A stretch of DNA of 64,000 nt, taken from the NCBI RefSeq assembly GCF_028553805.1, contig NZ_CP067140.1, positions 1,860,001 through 1,924,000 on the forward strand, written 5' to 3'. The notes under the pieces were generated by a model. That model made no database searches. It worked only from the letters and a program-made list of their open reading frames with translations, and was not told where the DNA came from. Made by a program: the position numbers and the translations under genes. This document shows, in pieces, positions 31,811-41,911 of this stretch; the first letter of the stretch is position 1, and each line of letters starts with the position of its first letter. The DNA comes from Paracoccus saliphilus (GTDB lineage: Bacteria > Pseudomonadota > Alphaproteobacteria > Rhodobacterales > Rhodobacteraceae).

Positions 31811-34336
31811 TCAGAACCGGAACTCCTTCGACTTGAACGAAATATGCCGTGCGGCTTCCGGGACGTCCGCTATTTTGCGAATGTCCGCCCATGTCTGCTT
31901 ATAGACGGGGATCACCAATTCGTTCACACCTTTGCTGACGATATTGCCCTGGGTTCCCCGCGGCGAACCGAACAGCATGAAGGTTTCACCTCGCGTGGCC
32001 GTCTCGGTCGGGTAGGCTATCGCCTGCGTGGCACCGTTTCCATTGAAGACTTCCACCAGGTCCCCCGGCTCGATGCCGTTCTCCGCCATGTCCTCGGGGT
32101 TCATCTCAATGAACGGATAGGGCCAGCGGTCGGTGACAAAGTCATTCTCCTGGTCCAGGAACCAGTTCTGCCAGTTGAGATTTGAGCGACCGTTATTGAT
32201 CAGGAACGTGTAGGATTCGCTCTCTTCCTGTTTTCCGGGAGTAACCAGGCCACGCCATGGCCCAGCCATGAAGCGCGCGAGCCCGTCATCGGTAGAGAAC
32301 TTACCGTCCTTGTAAAGCCGGTCTGTGCCGATGATAGTTTCGCCGTCCAGCCCTTGGGGAGGCTCCTGAAAACCATTCGTCCCCATTCCCCGCAGCCGTT
32401 CATAGGTGACATCGGGATGGGCGGATTGATAGCCGTCGCGGAAGGCGTCTTCTTCGTTTTTCCAGTCATAGCCCTGGAAATTGGCGGCATAGTCGCTGTT
32501 GCCCGCCTCGGAGAGCACGCGCTCCATATGCTGGGCGATTCCTGCCGCGATGAGGCAATCGGGCATCGCGTGACCCGGTGGGTCCATGTATTTCTCGGCC
32601 AGCCGCATGCGCCTCTCTCCATTCATGGAAGTCAGGTTCATCTCGCCCTGCTGGGCGGCGGGCAGGACGACATGCGCCTGACTACCCATCTCGTTCTGGA
32701 TGATATCCACGTTCACCGCGAAGAGCCCACCCTCGGCAATCGCGCCGACAATGGCATCGACCAGGGCGTCTCGCCCCTGTCCTGCAACCGAATCCATGGC
32801 CTCTTTCACCATATTGGTGCGGTGGTTGTAGATCCGCTTGAACTCGGTGGCGTTCAAAGTGGTTCGGTAATGGTTACAGGCCCAGATATGATGCACACCC
32901 CCTTTGCCATCGATGATGAGTTGATCAACATAGGCCGCGGGCCGTCCCACATGACCTTCACTCGGGCGGAAATAGCCCTCCTGATGGCCTCCCATCCGGA
33001 CGCAACCTCCGCCCAAATGCCCGATATTCCTGGTTGCCAGAGAGATATTCACGATAGCGCCATTGGTGCGGTAATTATCGTTGCCCCAGATGATCCCCTT
33101 TTCATAGCCAATCATCATGCGACGACGGGCACCGCCTTCTTTCGGCTCGGCCATCCATTCGGCGGCCTTGCGGATATCGTCAGCCGGAACGCCGCAGATT
33201 TCAGCGGCCTCCTCCAGTGACATCCGGTTCGTCTCGACGGCATCCTCGAAGCTGGTCAGCAGGCCAGGATTTGCGTCTGATGCGCCCTTCGCCGGGAACT
33301 CTGCCGGGTGTTCGGCGGCTTCGCGCAACGTGTGAGCGTCGATGAAATCCTGATCATGCCAGCCTTGTTCGACGATATGCGTGAAGATCGCGTTCGCCAG
33401 TGCCAGATCGGTTCCCGAATTGATTGGCAAATGCAGAACGTTATCGGTCCCTGCGGCTTGCTCTGCCGCATTGACCGAGACGTTTCTGCGCGGGTCGATA
33501 AAGATGATCTTGGCGGGCTCATGCGGTTCGTCCGGCAGCAATTCGGCTTTCTTGTCCGACGTGATGCCCTGCAGGTTCGGCACCCAGTGGTTGAGGAAGT
33601 AGTTCGTCTGGCACTCCAGAGGATTGCATCCCCAGGCAACCAGTGTGTCGGTGAGTTCGGCGTCCTCATAGGCGTTGTTCAATTCGCCAACACCCATATC
33701 TCGCGTGGCATGAACCTCGGAATTATATGCGGGGCGGTTGTGAATGCGGACATTCTTGACCTTCATGCTCTCGAAATACAGCTTCCCGGTGCCCCAGGTG
33801 TTTTCATAGCCACCACCCGAGCCGCCATGATCGAACATTGATACGATCAGATCGTCCTCGGACCCGTCCGTCACGATCCGCGCTGTCACCCTTGCAACCA
33901 GATCGAATGCATCCTCCCAGCTTGTCTGCTGATATGTTCCGTAACGCCAGGTCAGCGGATCGGTCAGCCGATGTCCTTGGGTGCCGGTAACGGTCGAGGG
34001 GTGGTTCTCGGCCATGCGCGCGCCGCGCACCGAGCCGAGACCGGAATTTACCACGCAGTTCACATCGGGCTTGATGACCAGTTGAACGTCTCGGCCGTCC
34101 TGTTTCACAATGTTATACATCGAGGGCGCATACCATGCTTCAGTGTCCTGAGGTTGCTGCTCACTCAGATCCACGCCAAAGACGTTTTGCGATGGATCAG
34201 TGCCGCCTTGCCGGTTGATCGGCCAAGTGTAAGCCTTGTAGCCGCAGCCGACGATGCAATAATGGCAAACCGCATTTTGAACTTTTGCGTCCGCCGGGAT
34301 GATCGGCAGGCGGTCGATATGTCTCTTGTAAGCCAT
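31811..34336 (-). CDS. aioA: Arsenite oxidase large subunit AioA (molybdopterin enzyme)
   Basis: 841 residues, the normal AioA length. It oxidises As(III) to As(V) in the periplasm with a bis-pyranopterin Mo centre and a 3Fe-4S cluster; the cluster ligands C24, C27 and C31 are in AVCHYCIVGCGY. Other family stretches are HNRPAYNSEVHATRDMGVGE, GGGCVRMGGHQEGYFRPSEG and WACNHYRTTLNATEFKRIYN. ATG 34336 gives the canonical MAYKRHIDRLPIIP start. No signal peptide: it is exported bound to the Tat-bearing AioB, encoded 13 bases upstream. Electrons pass through the AioB Rieske centre to a cytochrome not encoded here. Confidence 0.97.
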   Translation of the reverse strand: MAYKRHIDRLPIIPADAKVQNAVCHYCIVGCGYKAYTWPINRQGGTDPSQNVFGVDLSEQQPQDTEAWYAPSMYNIVKQDGRDVQLVIKPDVNCVVNSGLGSVRGARMAENHPSTVTGTQGHRLTDPLTWRYGTYQQTSWEDAFDLVARVTARIVTDGSEDDLIVSMFDHGGSGGGYENTWGTGKLYFESMKVKNVRIHNRPAYNSEVHATRDMGVGELNNAYEDAELTDTLVAWGCNPLECQTNYFLNHWVPNLQGITSDKKAELLPDEPHEPAKIIFIDPRRNVSVNAAEQAAGTDNVLHLPINSGTDLALANAIFTHIVEQGWHDQDFIDAHTLREAAEHPAEFPAKGASDANPGLLTSFEDAVETNRMSLEEAAEICGVPADDIRKAAEWMAEPKEGGARRRMMIGYEKGIIWGNDNYRTNGAIVNISLATRNIGHLGGGCVRMGGHQEGYFRPSEGHVGRPAAYVDQLIIDGKGGVHHIWACNHYRTTLNATEFKRIYNHRTNMVKEAMDSVAGQGRDALVDAIVGAIAEGGLFAVNVDIIQNEMGSQAHVVLPAAQQGEMNLTSMNGERRMRLAEKYMDPPGHAMPDCLIAAGIAQHMERVLSEAGNSDYAANFQGYDWKNEEDAFRDGYQSAHPDVTYERLRGMGTNGFQEPPQGLDGETIIGTDRLYKDGKFSTDDGLARFMAGPWRGLVTPGKQEESESYTFLINNGRSNLNWQNWFLDQENDFVTDRWPYPFIEMNPEDMAENGIEPGDLVEVFNGNGATQAIAYPTETATRGETFMLFGSPRGTQGNIVSKGVNELVIPVYKQTWADIRKIADVPEAARHISFKSKEFRF

Positions 34337-34349
34337 GATCCGTTCTCCT

Positions 34350-34874
34350 TCAGAGCGTATTGGACAGGCGGCCAAAGATCAGCTCGTCCACGCCTTCGGC
34401 ATAGATCTCGCCGTCATCATCGACGCGCAGATTGAATTGCGGCAGGTTGCTGGTGGCATGCCCCCAGACCTGCTGCCCGCCCGCTTCTGCATCGAAACGC
34501 GAATAATGGCCGGGGCAATTGAAGGTCCGGTCATCAGCGTTATAACCCAGATACCAGCCCTTGTGCGGGCACAGGACGGAGAAGCCGACGATATCCCCAT
34601 CTGGCCCGGCGCCGCCTTCCACCGCATGCCCAAGCTTGAGCAACACTCCGGGGCTGTCATCATCTGGGTAACTGACGTCGAGCGGTTCGTTTTCGGTCAG
34701 GTCGGCCACGTTGCCGAGCCGGTTCGCCGGATATTCAACCCGCGCGAGCGCAGCCTGCGCCTTGGCCTCTTGCGTTCCGGCAAATGTCGTCGCGGCCGCA
34801 CCCGCGGTGGCCATCATCCCGCCTCGCAGGAACTGGCGGCGCCCGGCATCGATCAAGCGATTGCATTTTGTCAT
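34350..34874 (-). CDS. aioB: Arsenite oxidase small subunit AioB (Rieske protein)
   Basis: 174 residues. A Tat signal (GRRQFLRGGMMATAGAAA) is followed by the Rieske domain with the 2Fe-2S ligands C102 and H104 in LCPHKGW and C120 and H123 in NCPGHYS. It takes electrons from AioA and carries both subunits through the Tat system. First gene of the aioBA unit; the 160 bases upstream hold a strong palindrome but no clear -24/-12 promoter. Confidence 0.96.
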   Translation of the reverse strand: MTKCNRLIDAGRRQFLRGGMMATAGAAATTFAGTQEAKAQAALARVEYPANRLGNVADLTENEPLDVSYPDDDSPGVLLKLGHAVEGGAGPDGDIVGFSVLCPHKGWYLGYNADDRTFNCPGHYSRFDAEAGGQQVWGHATSNLPQFNLRVDDDGEIYAEGVDELIFGRLSNTL

Positions 34875-35036
34875 CTGGCTTGGTTCTCCCCTCGCTGGTT
34901 GAGAAGAGTATAGCGTGTTCTCGTGGCAATCTTATGGCGGCATCGCGCAAGAAAATTCTACTAATAAATTGTAATAATTTGCATTTTCTTGATGTTCGGT
35001 TTCCCGAACATTAACCGCGAAAGCCAAGGGAAATAA
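34875..35036 (-). promoter_or_regulatory. aioBA upstream region with ATGTTCGG palindrome
   Basis: A perfect 8-base-arm inverted repeat ATGTTCGG/CCGAACAT lies at 34992-35011. On the minus-strand transcript the loop is GAAA, so it can also act as a stable hairpin at the aioR 3' end. AT-rich sequence (34965-34990) separates it from aioB. I did not find a good TGGCAC-N5-TTGC element. The palindrome may be an AioR site or a terminator of aioXSR. Confidence 0.5.
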
Positions 35037-36266
35037 TCAGGAAAGCCCGAATTTCTGCATCTTTTCCCATAATGTCGTCCGGGCGATCCGCAATAGTTTT
35101 GCGGTCTTGCCAAGATGTCCGCCGGTCTGTTCCAGCGCTGCGATAATCTGCGACCGCTCTGCCGCATCACGTGCTTCTGCCAGGGACAGGAACCAGTCAC
35201 CTTCGGCAAGTCTCTCGGGAAAAAGATCTGCGGGCTGTATCCAGCCGTCTCGCGCGGTCTGAAACGCCCGTGTCAGACGGGTCCGAATTTCCCGACCGCC
35301 ACCGGAGAGATCGTGGCCGCGCAGGGCCTGTTCGGCCAGGGCGCTGATGCCGCGCAATGGGGGATCGTGTTTTGCATTCAGTTGGTCGAAGAGACGATTC
35401 ATCAGCCATACCGCATCTTCAGGCCGTTGACGAAAAGGCGGGACCGGAATTTCGACCTCGGAGAGTTGAGCAAACAGATCGGCGCGGAACGACCCCGATG
35501 CAACCTCGTCCTCGATTGTCGGGTCGGTGGTCGAAATGATGCGGCCGGAAAAATCCCGATCGAGCGACGTGAGCAAACGATCTTGTAACGCTTCGCTCAT
35601 CCGATCGATGGATTGCAGGCAAAGGATGCCCTCTCCAACAGCGTCCATTGCGCCGCCTGCTGCGAACAGCGCTTGCTCGACCTTTTGGTCCCTCGCGAAA
35701 TTTACGGTCAAGAAAGGTGCAGAGCAGCGGTCGGAAAGTTCGTGTAGTCGCTTAGCAATCGAGATTTTTCCGGTGCCCGGACCACCAAGAATCGTGACAT
35801 GGCCGTTACGGTTGGCGGCCTGCTCCACCAGTTCTTCGACTCTCTGCGCTGCAGGCGAAATACCCACCAGAGGAGGCATTTCAAGTGCATTGCGTGGTTT
35901 CATCAGCAATGCCAACCGATCCAGAAACACCGACATGTCGAAAGGCTTCGTTACGTAATCCACGGCGCCGGACTGCATGAGGCGAACCGCCTGGGCGATG
36001 CTTCCCTGCCCTGTGATGAACAAAAATGGGGGTGGAGTAGAGGTTCGGCATAGCGTTGCGAACAAATCCTCGCCAGTGCCGTCCGGCAGGATGATGTCGC
36101 AGATCACCGCGTCAATGGGCGCGCGCGGGGTGCGAATTGCGCCCAGTGCCCGAACCATCTGTTTATACCAGATGATCTCGGCTCCTTCCAATTTCAGTCT
36201 CTGCGCGATTGAGCCGCCCATGATTTCGTCATCTTCGATTAGAGCAATGCGGCGTTGATTTAGCAT
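35037..36266 (-). CDS. aioR: Arsenite response regulator AioR (NtrC-type, degenerate AAA domain)
   Basis: 409 residues. Receiver domain (1-120) with phospho-Asp57 in ICDIILPDGTG and Lys107 in VTKPFD. AAA domain (about 135-340): Walker A GGPGTGKIS (161-169) is present and the Arg finger region FRADLFAQLSEVEIP is recognisable. However, the GAFTGA sigma-54 contact loop is missing: the stretch after VEQALFAAGG runs directly into GEGILCLQSIDRM, and the Walker B LFLDE is replaced by LCLQS. The C-terminal Fis-type HTH (LEQTGGHLGKTAKLLRIART) is intact. Such a protein may activate through sigma-70 polymerase, as described for NtrC of Rhodobacter capsulatus. It overlaps aioS by seven bases. Confidence 0.9.
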   Translation of the reverse strand: MLNQRRIALIEDDEIMGGSIAQRLKLEGAEIIWYKQMVRALGAIRTPRAPIDAVICDIILPDGTGEDLFATLCRTSTPPPFLFITGQGSIAQAVRLMQSGAVDYVTKPFDMSVFLDRLALLMKPRNALEMPPLVGISPAAQRVEELVEQAANRNGHVTILGGPGTGKISIAKRLHELSDRCSAPFLTVNFARDQKVEQALFAAGGAMDAVGEGILCLQSIDRMSEALQDRLLTSLDRDFSGRIISTTDPTIEDEVASGSFRADLFAQLSEVEIPVPPFRQRPEDAVWLMNRLFDQLNAKHDPPLRGISALAEQALRGHDLSGGGREIRTRLTRAFQTARDGWIQPADLFPERLAEGDWFLSLAEARDAAERSQIIAALEQTGGHLGKTAKLLRIARTTLWEKMQKFGLS

Positions 36267-37696
36267 GATTGGCTGGCCGGAGTTGGTGGATTACATGGAA
36301 GTGAGATGATGATCCGGGTGCCGCCATCCGGTGGGGCTAAATGTGTGATGGTTCCGGCCAGCATTCCCACAAGTTCTCGCACCATTCGCAATCCGACCCC
36401 TTCGCCGGGCAAAATCGGCTCCGAACCTTGCAGGCGCCGTAGGGCAGGGGCGGGCATTCCGGGTCCATTATCGAAAATTTCGAACCGCAATGCATCTCCG
36501 GCCAGATACGCATGCAACCCAACTTTTCCCCCATGCTTTGCTGCGTTTGATGCGTTCAGCAGCAGGTTGAGCAGAATCTGCCGAAGCATTCCTGCATCGT
36601 GACCCGATAAATTTTTCGGGTCGAGTTCGATCCGCCAATCGAGCCGTTGCTCGTGCCTGGTAATTTCAGGGCCGATCAGCAGGCGCAGATCTGCCAGATC
36701 ATCCAGCGACATATCCGCGCCATCTTGATCTATCCGGTTTTGCTCGAGTGTGGCGTGAGTCACGTCCCGCAAATGTTTTAATCCGCGCTCGAGCAATTCA
36801 GCCGATTGCCGAACCACATCCGGCCGGTCGGCAAAGCGGCGGATGGTGTCGGTCGCATTTATCAGACCGCCCAGGGGATTGTTGATCTCGTGGGCGAGCG
36901 AGGAAGAAAGCTGTCCGAGACTCACAAACCGCTCACGTTCAGCCAATTGGCGTTCGGCCTCGCTGCGCGCCTCAATGGCTTCGGCCATCGCATTGTAGGT
37001 CTGAAAGAGGCGTGCAACTTCCGAATCTCCGCGCGGAACCTGGACAGCGGGAATTGGAATGGGCTGCCCGATTGTCGCATCCATCCGTCGCGCCAGTTGC
37101 GTTACGGGGCGCAGCATTCGCCGAACCGCAAGATATCCGGCAAGTGCCATTGCAGTAGTTAACAGCGTATTGCCAATAATCAGCAAAAGTTCCGCGCGCC
37201 GACGCTCGGCACTCATGTCTCTGACATCGAGATCCGCTACGATTTTTCCGACATCGCGCCCCTGGTAAACCAATGGGGCACGAACCCTGACATGCGAGGA
37301 ATTTCTTGCAAATGTAATCGCGTCGAGGCGTTGAGCCTCCTCCGCTAATGCATCGATTGAGGTGTCGATCGGGACTCGCCGAGGATCCGTCGCTGCCAGG
37401 ACCTTCCCGGTTTCGTCGGCAACGACAGTCAGAAGCATTCTGCGCGAACTTCCCGTAGAACTGGCCCGGTCGAGCGTGTCGTAAACCTCCCAGATATCTT
37501 TTCGTAGAACAGAGGGACCAAGCGCCAGTGACAGACCTTCAATATGAAGCCGGGCAAGCTCACGAAGTCTGTTGTCCTGCACTCGATCAAGCGTCGAAAG
37601 CACCTGATGCGACGCAATCACACCTACCAATATCATCAACACTGCTGCCAAAAGTGGAACACGAAGCGAGAGGGGGAGATAAAGGAAGGGGCCCAT
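36260..37696 (-). CDS. aioS: Arsenite sensor histidine kinase AioS
   Basis: 478 residues. Two membrane helices (about 13-33 and 172-193) enclose a periplasmic domain of about 140 residues with IVADLDVRDMSAER before the second. A HAMP linker follows, then the H-box LSSSLAHEINNPLGG, N-box LLNLLLNASNAAKHGG, and G-boxes FDNGPGMPAP and GEGVGLRMV. It autophosphorylates on arsenite signals received through AioX and passes phosphate to AioR. The gene overlaps aioR and is joined to aioX by a one-base overlap. Confidence 0.95.
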   Translation of the reverse strand: MGPFLYLPLSLRVPLLAAVLMILVGVIASHQVLSTLDRVQDNRLRELARLHIEGLSLALGPSVLRKDIWEVYDTLDRASSTGSSRRMLLTVVADETGKVLAATDPRRVPIDTSIDALAEEAQRLDAITFARNSSHVRVRAPLVYQGRDVGKIVADLDVRDMSAERRRAELLLIIGNTLLTTAMALAGYLAVRRMLRPVTQLARRMDATIGQPIPIPAVQVPRGDSEVARLFQTYNAMAEAIEARSEAERQLAERERFVSLGQLSSSLAHEINNPLGGLINATDTIRRFADRPDVVRQSAELLERGLKHLRDVTHATLEQNRIDQDGADMSLDDLADLRLLIGPEITRHEQRLDWRIELDPKNLSGHDAGMLRQILLNLLLNASNAAKHGGKVGLHAYLAGDALRFEIFDNGPGMPAPALRRLQGSEPILPGEGVGLRMVRELVGMLAGTITHLAPPDGGTRIIISLPCNPPTPASQSC

Positions 37697-38544
37697 CAGT
37701 GATGTCCAGCGAGATCCTGCATCCGGGTGAGGATACCATCGAACAAGGCCACTTCTCCCCGAATCATTCCGTCCAGTTGCAACAGCGTCAAGGCATCTCG
37801 CCCTCGCTCGGACTCGGTCATCTGTAGCAAGGCCGCCTGAAATACGGCAAGATCGGGTTCGCCGATCCGGTCTGTCCTTGCGCAGAACGGCGGAAAGCCC
37901 AGAGGTTCGGATCGGGAAATGACCCGGGTGCGATCAGTAAGTTCTGGTTCCACCTTCGTGAGTGCTTCCCAGACATATCCATCCACGCTGCCCGATCTGA
38001 CAAGGCCGCCCGCCACTGCCCTGACGACATTCCTGTGCCCGTAAGTGAAAATGATACGAGAGAAAAATTGCTCCGGCCTCAGATTGTTGCGAGCGAGATC
38101 GGAGGCTGTTACGAGATATCCGGAATTCGAATTAGGATCTGAGAATGCGTGTGCTCCGCCTCTAAGGTCGGTCAGGCCCGATGCCTGATCTTCTTTAGAA
38201 GTGATCAGGTAGGACCGATAGGTCGGCGTGCCTTGCCAGAGCGGGACAGCGACCAGGGAAAGCTCATCCCGATGTTGGAGGAATGGATAGCCACACAACC
38301 ACGCCGCATCCACACCGCCTTCGAGCAGTAATCCGGTTACCTCCTGGTATGTGCGTTTCTGGACCAGGGTGACCGGCATGCCCGCCGCATAGCTCAGAGA
38401 TGTGCGCAGGCGATCGATGGTTTCGGAGTCATTGTCGAGAAACACCGGCGTTAGCCCTAATCGAAAGCTCGTTTGTGCGTCGGCTTGTCGACTTAGAAAA
38501 CCGAGCGTTGCTGCGCCGATAGAAAACATCCGCCTGCTCAACAT
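37696..38544 (-). CDS. aioX: Periplasmic arsenite-binding sensor AioX
   Basis: 282 residues with a Tat/Sec-like signal (MLSRRMFSIGAATLGFLSRQ, cleaved near ADA). The mature part is a PhnD-type binding fold: FRLGLTPVFLDNDSETIDRL, then AAWLCGYPFLQH holding Cys84, the position expected for the arsenite-binding cysteine, and later SDPNSNSGYLVTASDL. It presents arsenite to AioS. It heads the aioXSR unit; the stop overlaps the aioS start by one base. Confidence 0.94.
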   Translation of the reverse strand: MLSRRMFSIGAATLGFLSRQADAQTSFRLGLTPVFLDNDSETIDRLRTSLSYAAGMPVTLVQKRTYQEVTGLLLEGGVDAAWLCGYPFLQHRDELSLVAVPLWQGTPTYRSYLITSKEDQASGLTDLRGGAHAFSDPNSNSGYLVTASDLARNNLRPEQFFSRIIFTYGHRNVVRAVAGGLVRSGSVDGYVWEALTKVEPELTDRTRVISRSEPLGFPPFCARTDRIGEPDLAVFQAALLQMTESERGRDALTLLQLDGMIRGEVALFDGILTRMQDLAGHH

Positions 38545-38823: not shown

Positions 38824-38827
38824 ATGG
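38801..38827 (+). promoter_or_regulatory. Putative ArsR operator overlapping the start codon
   Basis: AATATATCGTCTATTCTCGA and then AATATGG has the AT-rich ATAT...CGA symmetry typical of ArsR boxes. The ATG at 38824 lies inside its right edge, so repressor binding would cover the translation start, and the transcript may have a very short leader. Confidence 0.45.
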
Positions 38828-39663
38828 ATACGAATCGCATAGATCAACTCGCCTCGCTCGCCCATCCGCAACGGTTGGCCCTGTTTCGGCTGCTAGTGCG
38901 GCGCTATCCGGACCGGGTTTCCGCCGGAGAGCTGGCCGAGGCAATCGATGCGCGACAGAACACCCTGTCATCCTACCTGACCTCGCTGCGCGCGGCCGGG
39001 TTGATCTCGCAGGCCCGCGAGGGCCGATCATTGCTTTACCGTGCCGAGATCGAGCAATCCGCGGCGCTGATCGGCTACCTTGTCGCCGATTGCTGCCGTG
39101 GCCGCCCCGACCTTTGCCAGCCATTCATTCAACCCACCCCTTCCGGAGAAAGACCCATGTCCGATCGGAAATACAATGTCCTGTTCATCTGCACGGGCAA
39201 TTCCGCCCGCTCGATCTTTGGCGAATCAATCCTGCGCTTCGAGGCCGGGGACCGCTTTAACGCCTATTCCGCCGGCACATATCCCTATTCCGAACTGAAC
39301 CCGTTCGCTGTCGAGATGCTCGATCACAAGGGGCATGACATCAGCGCCCTGCGGGCCAAGAATATCGCCGAGTTCCAGGGCCCCGACGCGCCAGTCATGG
39401 ATTTCGTGTTCACCGTCTGCGACCGCGCCGCGAATGAGGAATGCCCGGCATGGGCAGGCCAGCCGATCAGCGCGCATTGGGGGATGCCCGATCCGGTGAA
39501 GGCAGAGGGGACCGAGGCAGAGAAGAAACTGGCCTTCCAGCAGGCCTATGCCGGTTTACGCAACCGTATCCTCGCCTTTACCGCATTGCCGCTGGACAGC
39601 CTTGATCGCATTTCGCTGCAACATCGCGTGGACGACATCGCCCGCGACCTGGAGGCACAATGA
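38824..39663 (+). CDS. ArsR-ArsC fusion: arsenic repressor plus arsenate reductase
   Basis: 279 residues. Residues 1-105 are an ArsR winged helix ([35 protein letters not shown]) with Cys90, Cys91 and Cys98 at its end as possible As(III) ligands. Residues 112-279 are a low-molecular-weight phosphatase-type ArsC with the P-loop [10 protein letters not shown] (Cys123) and [12 protein letters not shown]. An internal ATG at 39157 is preceded by GGAGAAAGACCC, so free ArsC may also be made. First gene of an operon with GAPDH and arsJ. Confidence 0.93.
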
Positions 39664-40661
39664 CCGTCACCTATGCGCTGAACGGGCTTGGCCGGATCGG
39701 CAAGCTGGCGCTGCGGCCACTGCTGGAAAGCGGGGCAGAGATCGCCTGGATCAACGATGCGACAGGCGATCCCGAGATGCACGCCCATCTGCTGGAATTC
39801 GACAGTGTGCATGGCCGCTGGCCCGCCGAGTTCAGCCACGATGCGAAGAGTATCAGCGTCAATGGCACCCGCCTGCCGGTGCATAACGTGAAGCGCATCG
39901 AGGATTTGCCATTGGGTGGGGTCGATGTGGTGATCGATTGCACCGGGGTGTTCAAGAGCGAGGCGAAACTCGCCCCCTATTTCGCCGCCGGGGTGAAGAA
40001 GGTGATTGTCAGCGCGCCGGTCAAGGATGGGCCGGTCGCAAATATCGTGTATGGCGTCAATCACGCGACCTACGACCCCGCCCGGCATGACATCGTCACG
40101 GCGGCAAGCTGCACGACGAACTGCCTGGCCCCGGTGGTCAAGGTCATCCATGAGGGGCTGGGTATCCGCCACGGCTCGATCACCACGATCCATGATGTGA
40201 CCAATACACAAACCATCGTGGACCGCCCGGCCAAGGATCTACGGCGTGCCCGCTCGGCGTTGAATTCGTTGATCCCGACCACGACCGGCTCGGCCACGGC
40301 GATCACGCTGATCTATCCCGAGCTCAAGGGGCGGTTGAACGGTCATGCGGTGCGGGTGCCGCTGCTCAACGCTTCGCTGACCGATTGCGTGTTCGAGGTG
40401 GCCCGCGAGACCAGCGCCGAAGAGGTCAACGCGATGTTGCGCGCCGCCGCCGAGGGGCCGCTGCAAGGCATCCTTGGCTTCGAGGACCGCCCGCTGGTCT
40501 CGGCCGATTACGTGAATGACACAAGGTCGAGCATCGTGGACGGGCCGTCGACGATGGTTGTCGCGGGGACGCAGGTCAAGATTTACGCGTGGTATGACAA
40601 CGAGATGGGCTATGCCCATAGGCTGGTCGATGTCGCGCGCATGGTCGGGGCGTCGCTGTGA
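39660..40661 (+). CDS. Glyceraldehyde-3-phosphate dehydrogenase of the ars operon
   Basis: 333 residues. NAD site [17 protein letters not shown], catalytic cysteine in [11 protein letters not shown], and the conserved [13 protein letters not shown] end. Operon-borne GAPDH uses arsenate in place of phosphate to make unstable 1-arseno-3-phosphoglycerate, which ArsJ exports. The ATG overlaps the stop of the arsR-arsC gene, and its own stop overlaps the arsJ start, so stoichiometric expression is likely. A housekeeping GAPDH is expected elsewhere. Confidence 0.94.
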
Positions 40662-41911
40662 GTGCCGCAGCCCGGCCCGAGGGGCTTACCGCCTATATCA
40701 CCGTGACCGCCGCCTATTGGGCCTTCATGCTGACCGATGGCGCCCTGCGGATGCTGGTGCTGCTGCATTTCCATACGCTCGGTTTCTCGCCGGTGCAGCT
40801 GGCCTACCTGTTCCTGCTTTATGAGCTGGCGGGCATCGTCACCAATCTCTCGGCGGGCTGGATCGCCGCGCGTTTCGGCCTGACCTCGACGCTTTATGCG
40901 GGGCTGGGCATCCAGGTGCTGGCGCTTCTGGCGCTGGCGGCGCTCGATCCGGGCTGGAGCCTTTGGGCCTCGGTCGTCTATGTCATGGCGGTGCAGGGTG
41001 CGTCGGGCGTCGCCAAGGACCTGTCCAAGATGAGCGCGAAAAGCGCCGTCAAGCTGCTTGCCCCCTCGGGCGAGGGCGGGTTGTTTTGGTGGGTGGCGCT
41101 GCTGACCGGCTCCAAGAACGCGGTGAAGGGGGCGGGCTTCCTGCTTGGGGCGGTGCTGTTGGCCGTTCTGGGCTTCGTGCCCGCGATCCTGGCGATGGCC
41201 CTGGTGCTGGCGCTGATCCTGCTTGCGGTCCTGCTGAAGATGCCGGCGGGGCTGCCGCAGGGCAGGAAAGGCGCGAAGTTCCGCGAAGTGTTTTCCAAGG
41301 ACCGGAATATCAACCGCCTGTCGGCAGCGCGGCTGTTCCTGTTCGGCGCCCGCGATGTCTGGTTCGTCGTCGGCATCCCGATCTATTTCTACGCGGTGCT
41401 GTCCGACGGGTCGGAAGAGGGCAACCGCGCTGCCTTCTTCATGATCGGCACATTCATGGCGGTCTGGACCATCCTTTATGGGGCGGTGCAGGCGGCTGCG
41501 CCGCGCCTGCTTGGGGCCGCCAAGCGCCCCGAGGCGGAATTGATCCGGGAAGCCCGGCGTTGGGCCGGGTTCCTGTTCCTCGTCCCGGCGGCTTTGGCCG
41601 TGCTGATCTGGAGCGTGGGCGCACCGGGTGCGGGACTGACCGCCGCGATCGTGATCGGCCTGCTGGTCTTTGGTGCCATCTTCGCGGTCAACTCCTCGCT
41701 GCATTCCTACCTGATCCTCGCCTTCTCGACCTCCGGGCGGGTGACGATGGATGTGGGGTTTTACTACATGGCCAATGCCGCCGGCCGGTTACTGGGCACG
41801 CTGTTGTCGGGGCTCAGTTATCAGCTTGGGGGGCTGGCGCTTTGCCTCGCGAGCGCCGCCTTGCTGATTGCCCTCAGTTGGGCGGGGGCAGGGCGGTTGC
41901 GGTCGGCGTGA
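40658..41911 (+). CDS. arsJ: ArsJ, MFS exporter of 1-arseno-3-phosphoglycerate
   Basis: 417 residues with about twelve membrane helices. It starts at GTG 40658, overlapping the GAPDH stop (GTGA). Family features include [40 protein letters not shown] and [18 protein letters not shown]. It exports the arseno-sugar-acid made by the neighbouring GAPDH; after release the product breaks down to arsenate. Confidence 0.95.

Follow-up and report, generated by a model that had tools for sequence, protein, structure and literature searches.

Control of arsenite oxidase by the AioXSR system has been described as σ54-dependent (PMC7533571, PMC3834237), and all 12 aioXSR operons studied in PMC3834237, according to the available part of its text, have two palindromes and a -24/-12 promoter. 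Rhodobacter sp. SW2 is among the arsenic islands considered there. The L1/GAFTGA loop is missing from the NtrC proteins of Rhodobacter capsulatus and other members of its order, and action through σ70 has been reported for R. capsulatus NtrC (preprint PMC10274813, in excerpt). HupR, VpsR, TyrR, DhaR, and Caulobacter NtrC are likewise NtrC-type proteins without GAFTGA or without σ54 contact, as stated in the accessible portions of PMC3162934 and PMC10274813. Loopless NtrC-type proteins that are reported or thought to use σ70 are, going by these excerpts, already known. A literature search for AioR together with GAFTGA gave no match, and a search by title and start of the abstract showed no σ54-independent AioR among the matches listed.

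We analyzed a 64,000-nucleotide stretch of the Paracoccus saliphilus genome, referred to as the window, which contains an arsenite oxidase locus with the gene order aioX-aioS-aioR-aioB-aioA. The order is identical in loci L016–L018, L022, and L023, and the regulator of the window is a true AioR ortholog of the AioXSR system. The features of the locus are:

31811..34375, minus strand: aioA, molybdopterin large subunit, target gene (TIGR02693, 1223 bits)
34350..34874, minus strand: aioB, Rieske small subunit, target gene (TIGR02694)
34907..34912, minus strand: predicted -10 element TATACT, 92 bp from the operator (centre to centre), without a good -35
34962..34974, minus strand: weak IHF-like site TTACAATTTATTA, which differs from the consensus WATCAANNNNTTR at two positions; many relatives have better sites
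34994..35009, no strand assigned: predicted AioR operator, GTTCGGGAAACCGAAC on the minus strand, exact GTTCGGN4CCGAAC, the only one in the genome
35037..36266, minus strand: aioR, response regulator of 409 aa with ATG start; receiver, AAA+ domain without GAFTGA, Fis HTH
35049..35165, minus strand: Fis-type HTH, residues 368–406 (Pfam match)
35610..35624, minus strand: degenerate Walker B LCLQS, residues 215–219 (alignment)
35634..35690, minus strand: position of the deleted L1/GAFTGA loop, residues 193–211 (alignment with relatives)
35766..35786, minus strand: Walker A GGPGTGK, residues 161–167 (alignment)
36096..36098, minus strand: Asp57, receiver phospho-acceptor (role by homology)
36260..37696, minus strand: aioS, sensor kinase (domain match; same position in annotated plasmids)
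37696..38544, minus strand: aioX, periplasmic PhnD-like arsenite sensor (PF12974; same position in annotated plasmids)

The window also contains, on the plus strand, a single ORF resembling a fusion of an ArsR-type regulator with an ArsC-type arsenate reductase (38824–39663), and a GAPDH-like gene followed by an MFS-like gene (39660–41911), by resemblance an ArsJ-type pair as annotated in L017.

The locus resembles those of the σ54-dependent Rhizobiaceae AioR (Pseudorhizobium NT-26, Agrobacterium) in its aioXSR-aioBA order, receiver, HTH, and operator, and the regulators share 43% identity. However, the Rhizobiaceae systems have GAFTGA, LFLDEI, and a -24/-12 promoter, none of which is found in the window, and most loop-type loci have two operators, whereas the window has one. 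The L1/GAFTGA loop is deleted as in NtrC of R. capsulatus and other Rhodobacterales (PMC10274813, in excerpt), although that protein differs from AioR in regulator type, signal, and operator. The comparison with R. capsulatus NtrC made in the preliminary description is apt, as the available text of PMC10274813 reports both the missing loop and the action through σ70. HupR, VpsR, TyrR, DhaR, and Caulobacter NtrC are also other regulators that respond to other signals. Unlike the R. capsulatus NtrC case, AioR offers a σ54-type ortholog and its promoter for comparison. A single operator is used at this locus.

AioR is composed of a receiver (residues 7–118), a Sigma54_activ_2 domain (134–277), an AAA lid (279–352), and a Fis-type HTH_8 domain (368–406), which bears out its initial assignment as a protein with the receiver and HTH of an NtrC-type activator. 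Asp57 is invariant in 40/40 aligned rows including the window, E11, D12, D13, and K107 of the receiver are also conserved, and many positions of the HTH are invariant in the alignment, as are the receiver residues. In an alignment of the window protein with nine relatives from annotated plasmids, ELFGHEKGAFTGAHQLHRG of the NT-26 and A. tumefaciens proteins corresponds to ALFAAG-(12-column gap)-GAMD, and their LFLDEI corresponds to LCLQSI (215–220). The absence of GAFTGA and the replacement of Walker B by LCLQS, both claimed in the preliminary description, are thus confirmed. GAFTGA is present in AioR of NT-26, A. tumefaciens, and Acuticoccus, GSFSGA in that of Bosea, and LFLDEI in all four. 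The gap and the lack of a DE pair are common to the window, Rhodobacter CZR27, Paracoccus seriniphilus, Neotabrizicola, Cereibacter, and Pseudosulfitobacter. None of the best 120 of 1528 homologues has a GAFTGA-like motif. In the 121 rows formed by these homologues and the window protein, the Walker A Lys is kept in all, the first residue of the Walker B pair is N, H, or Q in 112, and the second is A, S, or G in 120.

Walker A had been described as retained and is so. The same claim for the Arg-finger region stands for the first Arg of the FRxDLFxRL finger (R261) and falls for the second, which is Gln (Q267); the finger positions are those of E. coli NtrC. We infer that the AAA+ domain can bind nucleotide through Walker A. 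It very probably neither hydrolyzes ATP nor remodels the polymerase, because GAFTGA, the acid pair of Walker B, and the second Arg finger are missing. An AlphaFold model has the AAA+ fold, with a mean pLDDT of 85 and values mostly above 90 in the AAA+ blocks; its pTM is 0.56, and the domain arrangement is unreliable. The best matches of the model among solved folds are Brucella NtrX and Aquifex-type NtrC1, and VpsR is also among the matches. Compared with σ54 activators (bEBPs) of group I, AioR has Walker A and lacks the GAFTGA loop and Walker B, and there is neither σ54 in the genome nor a -24/-12 element at the target. The NtrC architecture, the lost L1 loop, and the present Walker A are those of loopless NtrC-type proteins of the R. 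capsulatus NtrC kind.

A 97%-identical protein of 409 aa from a separate source (P0001) and the AioR of Paracoccus onubensis (L027) have the same loopless form, and an assembly error in aioR is therefore unlikely. The dN/dS ratio between the window aioR and that of L027 is 0.055 for the whole gene and 0.062 for the AAA+ part; the gene is therefore under purifying selection. Together with the conserved Walker A Lys and the same form in relatives, this led us to reject a pseudogene. It is very improbable that AioR is a decaying relic and that aioBA is constitutive or regulated otherwise. The lost motifs, the long branches of L032 and L051 in the AioR tree, and an aioR gene split over frames in L174 would fit such decay, but dN/dS ranges from 0.055 to 0.355 in the seven pairs tested (as high as 0.459 for the AAA+ part), operator and -10 element stay in register across the clade, and the receiver residues and much of the HTH are invariant. 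Since the operator, the sensor genes, and purifying selection are all present, we regard AioR as a working regulator.

The source genome comprises 4.62 Mb in two contigs and is 99.99% complete. It has no match to any of the three σ54 domain families PF04552, PF00309, and PF04963, and each search was positive for 4 of 14 control genomes, namely E. coli, B. subtilis, Caulobacter, and Bacteroides. The RpoN-independent activation of the aio genes suggested in the preliminary description is supported, and at the level of the genome it is close to settled. PF00158 matches 15 times in the genome, and eight of the matches are NtrC-type proteins, none with GAFTGA. A DctD-like protein (L001) has GAFAGA, and two others (L002, L003) have GAFPGA. 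The loop is missing from five proteins named by resemblance as NtrX (L004), DctD (L005), AioR (L006), AcoR-like (L007), and NtrC (L008); the name of L001 also rests on resemblance. The other PF00158 hits comprise a further stretch each of L007 and L008, Clp-like proteins (L009, L011, L013), and MoxR-like proteins (L014, L015). The entire NtrC-type set of the genome seems to have left σ54, as judged from its motifs. The GAFPGA response regulators L002 (C1:3746624-3750124) and L003 (C1:4216831-4220331) differ in 1 residue over 458 and lie ~470 kb apart, and represent either a recent duplication or an assembly repeat.

The upstream region of aioB was searched with -24/-12, -10, and -35 matrices and an IHF consensus that are approximate. 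The best -24/-12 score before aioB of the window is -2.7, as compared to 9.3–20.7 in loop-type loci, in line with the earlier remark that no clear promoter of this type precedes the gene. The σ54 route is disfavoured here, because the loop and catalytic residues, rpoN, and the -24/-12 element are all missing. That σ54 was overlooked, or that AioR uses it without GAFTGA, is hardly credible. The presence of rpoN in 16 of 33 related loopless genomes would speak for it, but the three domain families have no match in the source genome while four controls are positive, no -24/-12 element precedes aioB, and AioR has no Walker B for hydrolysis.

The operator sequence GTTCGG-N4-CCGAAC was DNase I-footprinted for AioR of A. 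tumefaciens GW4 before mcp (PMC5335332, in excerpt). Its occurrence as a single exact site in the source genome is not strong evidence alone, because the reversed pattern has one occurrence as well; its position between aioR and aioB is strong evidence. With the -10 element at 34907–34912, transcription of aioB is expected to start near 34900. The promoter agrees with R. capsulatus NtrC-type promoters in its σ70-like -10 and lack of -24/-12, as far as sequence can tell.

To place the locus among its relatives, we collected aio loci from several samples. Of 501 loci confirmed in a scan with an AioA alignment, the best 80 were used; their titles are nearly all alphaproteobacterial. Together with the window and 11 plasmid loci they make 92, of which 71 contain a full AioR-like gene, that of L019 being beside arx. 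Among 390 sampled genomes of the order, 24, including that of the window, encode AioA above 1000 bits. All 22 other genomes with AioR on the contig are loopless, and the remaining contig (L117) is too short. A second AioA-like group in this sample, 20 genomes with 390–443 bits to TIGR02693, is above the cut-off but far weaker. We guess that this group is perhaps iodate-reductase-like. From 95 loci with an AioR match we removed L021 (split aioR), L019 and L026 (both without aioB), and the duplicates L140 and L144, which left 90 unique loci with AioR and AioB.

The 90 loci divide into 51 loop-type and 39 loopless ones, the latter being 37 Rhodobacterales loci, L032, and L051. The motifs of the loop type are GAFTGA (44), GAFSGA (3), GSFSGA (3), and GAFTSA (1). 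A -24/-12 score of at least 9 was found in 51/51 loop-type loci as opposed to 1/39 loopless loci (Fisher p 1e-24, kinship ignored). The sole loopless exception, L153, has a -24/-12-like match of 14.1 at -39, outside the loop-type range of -69 to -49, alongside a loopless layout. L100 (8.7) and L150 (8.1) have weak -24/-12-like matches at -56 and -60, where a σ54 promoter would sit. Both L051, which has no loop, and L032, with GIASGS and a Walker B of LYLDEV, have rpoN but lack -24/-12.

In the AioR tree, calculated by a quick method with the loop columns left out and rooted at the midpoint, the 38 Rhodobacterales loopless proteins form one group (SH-aLRT 100); L019, L029, and L020/L142 fall outside the main part of this group. 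Two long branches, L032 and L051, lie among the loop-type proteins. Three loop-state changes are needed, one for the large clade and one each for L032 and L051, and the coupling of loop and promoter therefore rests on few independent events. The tree contains one independent pair on supported branches and three on all branches, too few to reach significance. Loopless AioR marks a Rhodobacterales clade whose predicted aioB promoter changed along with the protein.

The distribution of rpoN is less strict. PF04552 matches 116 of the 390 Rhodobacterales genomes (106 above the cut-off) and is absent from 274. Among the genomes carrying aio loci, rpoN was detected in 45/47 of the loop type versus 16/33 loopless Rhodobacterales; these whole-genome tests left out eight loci known from plasmid records. 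The loop-type genomes with no rpoN match are those of L048 (a 2.0-Mb assembly) and L081 (a draft). In the order sample, rpoN is present in 12 of the 22 genomes besides the window's with AioR on the contig, or 13 counting G317. Its absence from MAGs (e.g. L028, L077) is weak evidence. A per-genome rule by which absence of rpoN entails loss of the loop was rejected, as the 16/33 genomes and those of L032 and L051 have rpoN; loss of rpoN is therefore not a condition for looplessness.

The operator is common to loop-type and loopless loci. It occurs with at most one mismatch in 35/51 loop-type and 37/39 loopless loci; when two mismatches are allowed, the numbers rise to 50 and 38. Of the loopless Rhodobacterales loci, 36 have an operator with no more than one mismatch, and 34 of these contain a TANNNT hexamer whose centre is 92–96 bp from that operator. 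Shuffled sequences gave a mean of 1.9 such loci (maximum 6 over 300), loop-type loci gave 1/35, and other 5-bp intervals in the 36 loci contain the hexamer in a mean of 3.9% of loci (maximum 22%). Where the operator lies ~15 bp farther from aioB (L017, L138), the -10 element is shifted farther as well. The two misses were examined post hoc: in L142, TAACCT lies 94 bp from a second operator, and in L093 the candidate TAGACT is at 83, shorter than 92–96 by roughly a helical turn. In L020, also examined post hoc, no operator occurs within 260 bp; one located upstream of an IS3 gene has TACGCT at a distance of 93 bp. This IS3-family transposase gene (L020, 7469-8556; Pseudosulfitobacter pseudonitzschiae) lies between the predicted aioB promoter and aioB. 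L019, the loopless arx locus of Cereibacter, contains two operators, the proximal of which is 93 bp from TACCAT.

A second operator (at most 3 mismatches) 29–33 bp away, about 3 helical turns, is present in 33/35 loop-type versus 2/36 loopless Rhodobacterales loci (L054, L142), the shuffle expectation for the latter being about 2.4; the count is restricted to loci with a best operator of no more than one mismatch, by which 16/51 loop-type loci drop out. Four clusters of operator-to-promoter distance are an artefact of which tandem operator was picked and were not used as evidence. IHF-like sites with at most one mismatch occur at +32 to +35 in 12/36 loopless loci (shuffles 0.06, maximum 1) and are missing in 24/36. 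In 13/36 loopless loci and no loop-type locus, a second inverted repeat, e.g. TGCCGC-N3-GCGG, starts 38–39 bp from the operator centre (L016, L029, L076, L079, L138, L139, L141, L143, L145–L148, L152); the window lacks it.

The hexamer has C at its fifth position in 73%, with T, A, and T fixed by the search pattern. Reading of the aioB promoter by an alternative sigma factor, ECF or other, in place of the housekeeping one is unlikely. The -35 region is not TTGACA and the operator-anchored profile has a weak CG near +69/+70, which would suit such a factor, but TANNNT with this C fits a σ70 -10. Moreover, activated promoters usually have a poor -35. The same layout bears on a function of AioR as a repressor or anti-repressor, with the promoter driven by another activator or by σ70 alone. 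Loopless Caulobacter NtrC has repressed targets (PMC10274813, in excerpt), the ArsR-type AioF co-regulates in Thiomonas (review PMC7533571, in excerpt), and the ArsR-like gene at 38824–39663 is close by. However, an operator ~90 bp upstream of the -10, at a distance locked in 34/36 loci and combined with a poor -35, is an activator layout, and we consider repression quite unlikely. An operator near -104 leaves the promoter uncovered; activation is therefore favoured over repression by occlusion.

Predictions on loop state, operator, and -10 were written down before new loci were fetched. In a sample of 394 genomes of the family, 30 have AioA, 17 of them new; 16 were fetched and G644, whose contig starts at the gene, was omitted. 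L162 has no AioR. The prediction that all new loci are loopless held for 14 of the other 15 and failed for L163, where GAFTGA, rpoN, a -24/-12 element (13.8), and a pair of operators spaced by 29 bp make up the complete σ54 layout. All 14 new loopless loci have an operator with at most one mismatch, TANNNT at 92–95, and no second operator. Thirteen have no -24/-12 score of at least 9; the exception, L160, reaches 12.0 at -17, over the ribosome-binding region. L166 repeats L165 and L167 repeats L018, which leaves 12 unique new loopless loci. In one of these, L174 (genome G532), aioR is divided between two frames and aioA contains one TAG, due to either decay of the locus or sequencing errors.

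We consider it likely that AioR is a phosphorylation-gated, non-remodelling activator of a σ70-type promoter, which arose by joint change of protein and promoter. Its partner is predicted to be the σ70 polymerase, and its predicted target of activation is aioB. By analogy with orthologs, arsenite-bound AioX would make AioS phosphorylate AioR at Asp57. AioR dimers would then bind the single operator at 34994–35009, ~101–104 bp upstream of the expected start, and help RNA polymerase at the TATACT promoter, which has no good -35, by touching it from a constant face of the DNA helix. The DNA between operator and polymerase would probably be bent; many relatives have IHF-like sites there. Contact from a fixed position is suggested because the operator-to--10 spacing is rigid and replaces the tandem enhancers. 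Class I activators act at helical intervals, e.g. -61.5 to about -103.5.

With less than even confidence, we speculate that an AAA+ σ54 remodeller turned, within one ortholog, into a single-dimer activator of the housekeeping polymerase fixed at about -104, that ATP is possibly a ligand and not a fuel, and that the loop and promoter changed first and the distal operator was lost later. Two operators are retained in L019 and L142, near the base of the clade, and in L054, whose place in the tree is unresolved. Loss of the distal operator would have been repeated, because only a single operator is present in L020 and L029, which likewise branch near the base. Loss of -24/-12 accompanies the two further loop losses in L032 and L051.

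Relative to the literature searched, the new element is a Rhodobacterales AioR that appears to have turned loopless, with its promoter changed to match and the second operator gone. The clade departs from the rule of two palindromes and -24/-12 given in the available text of PMC3834237. It provides an ortholog-level record of a regulator and promoter that would have switched sigma factor jointly, a change whose traces can be read in the number and spacing of operators, and the σ70 mechanism of loopless NtrC-type proteins becomes directly testable. The label "sigma-54-dependent transcriptional regulator", carried by several such proteins, misleads, and predictions of arsenite oxidation built on RpoN would fail in this group of Rhodobacterales.
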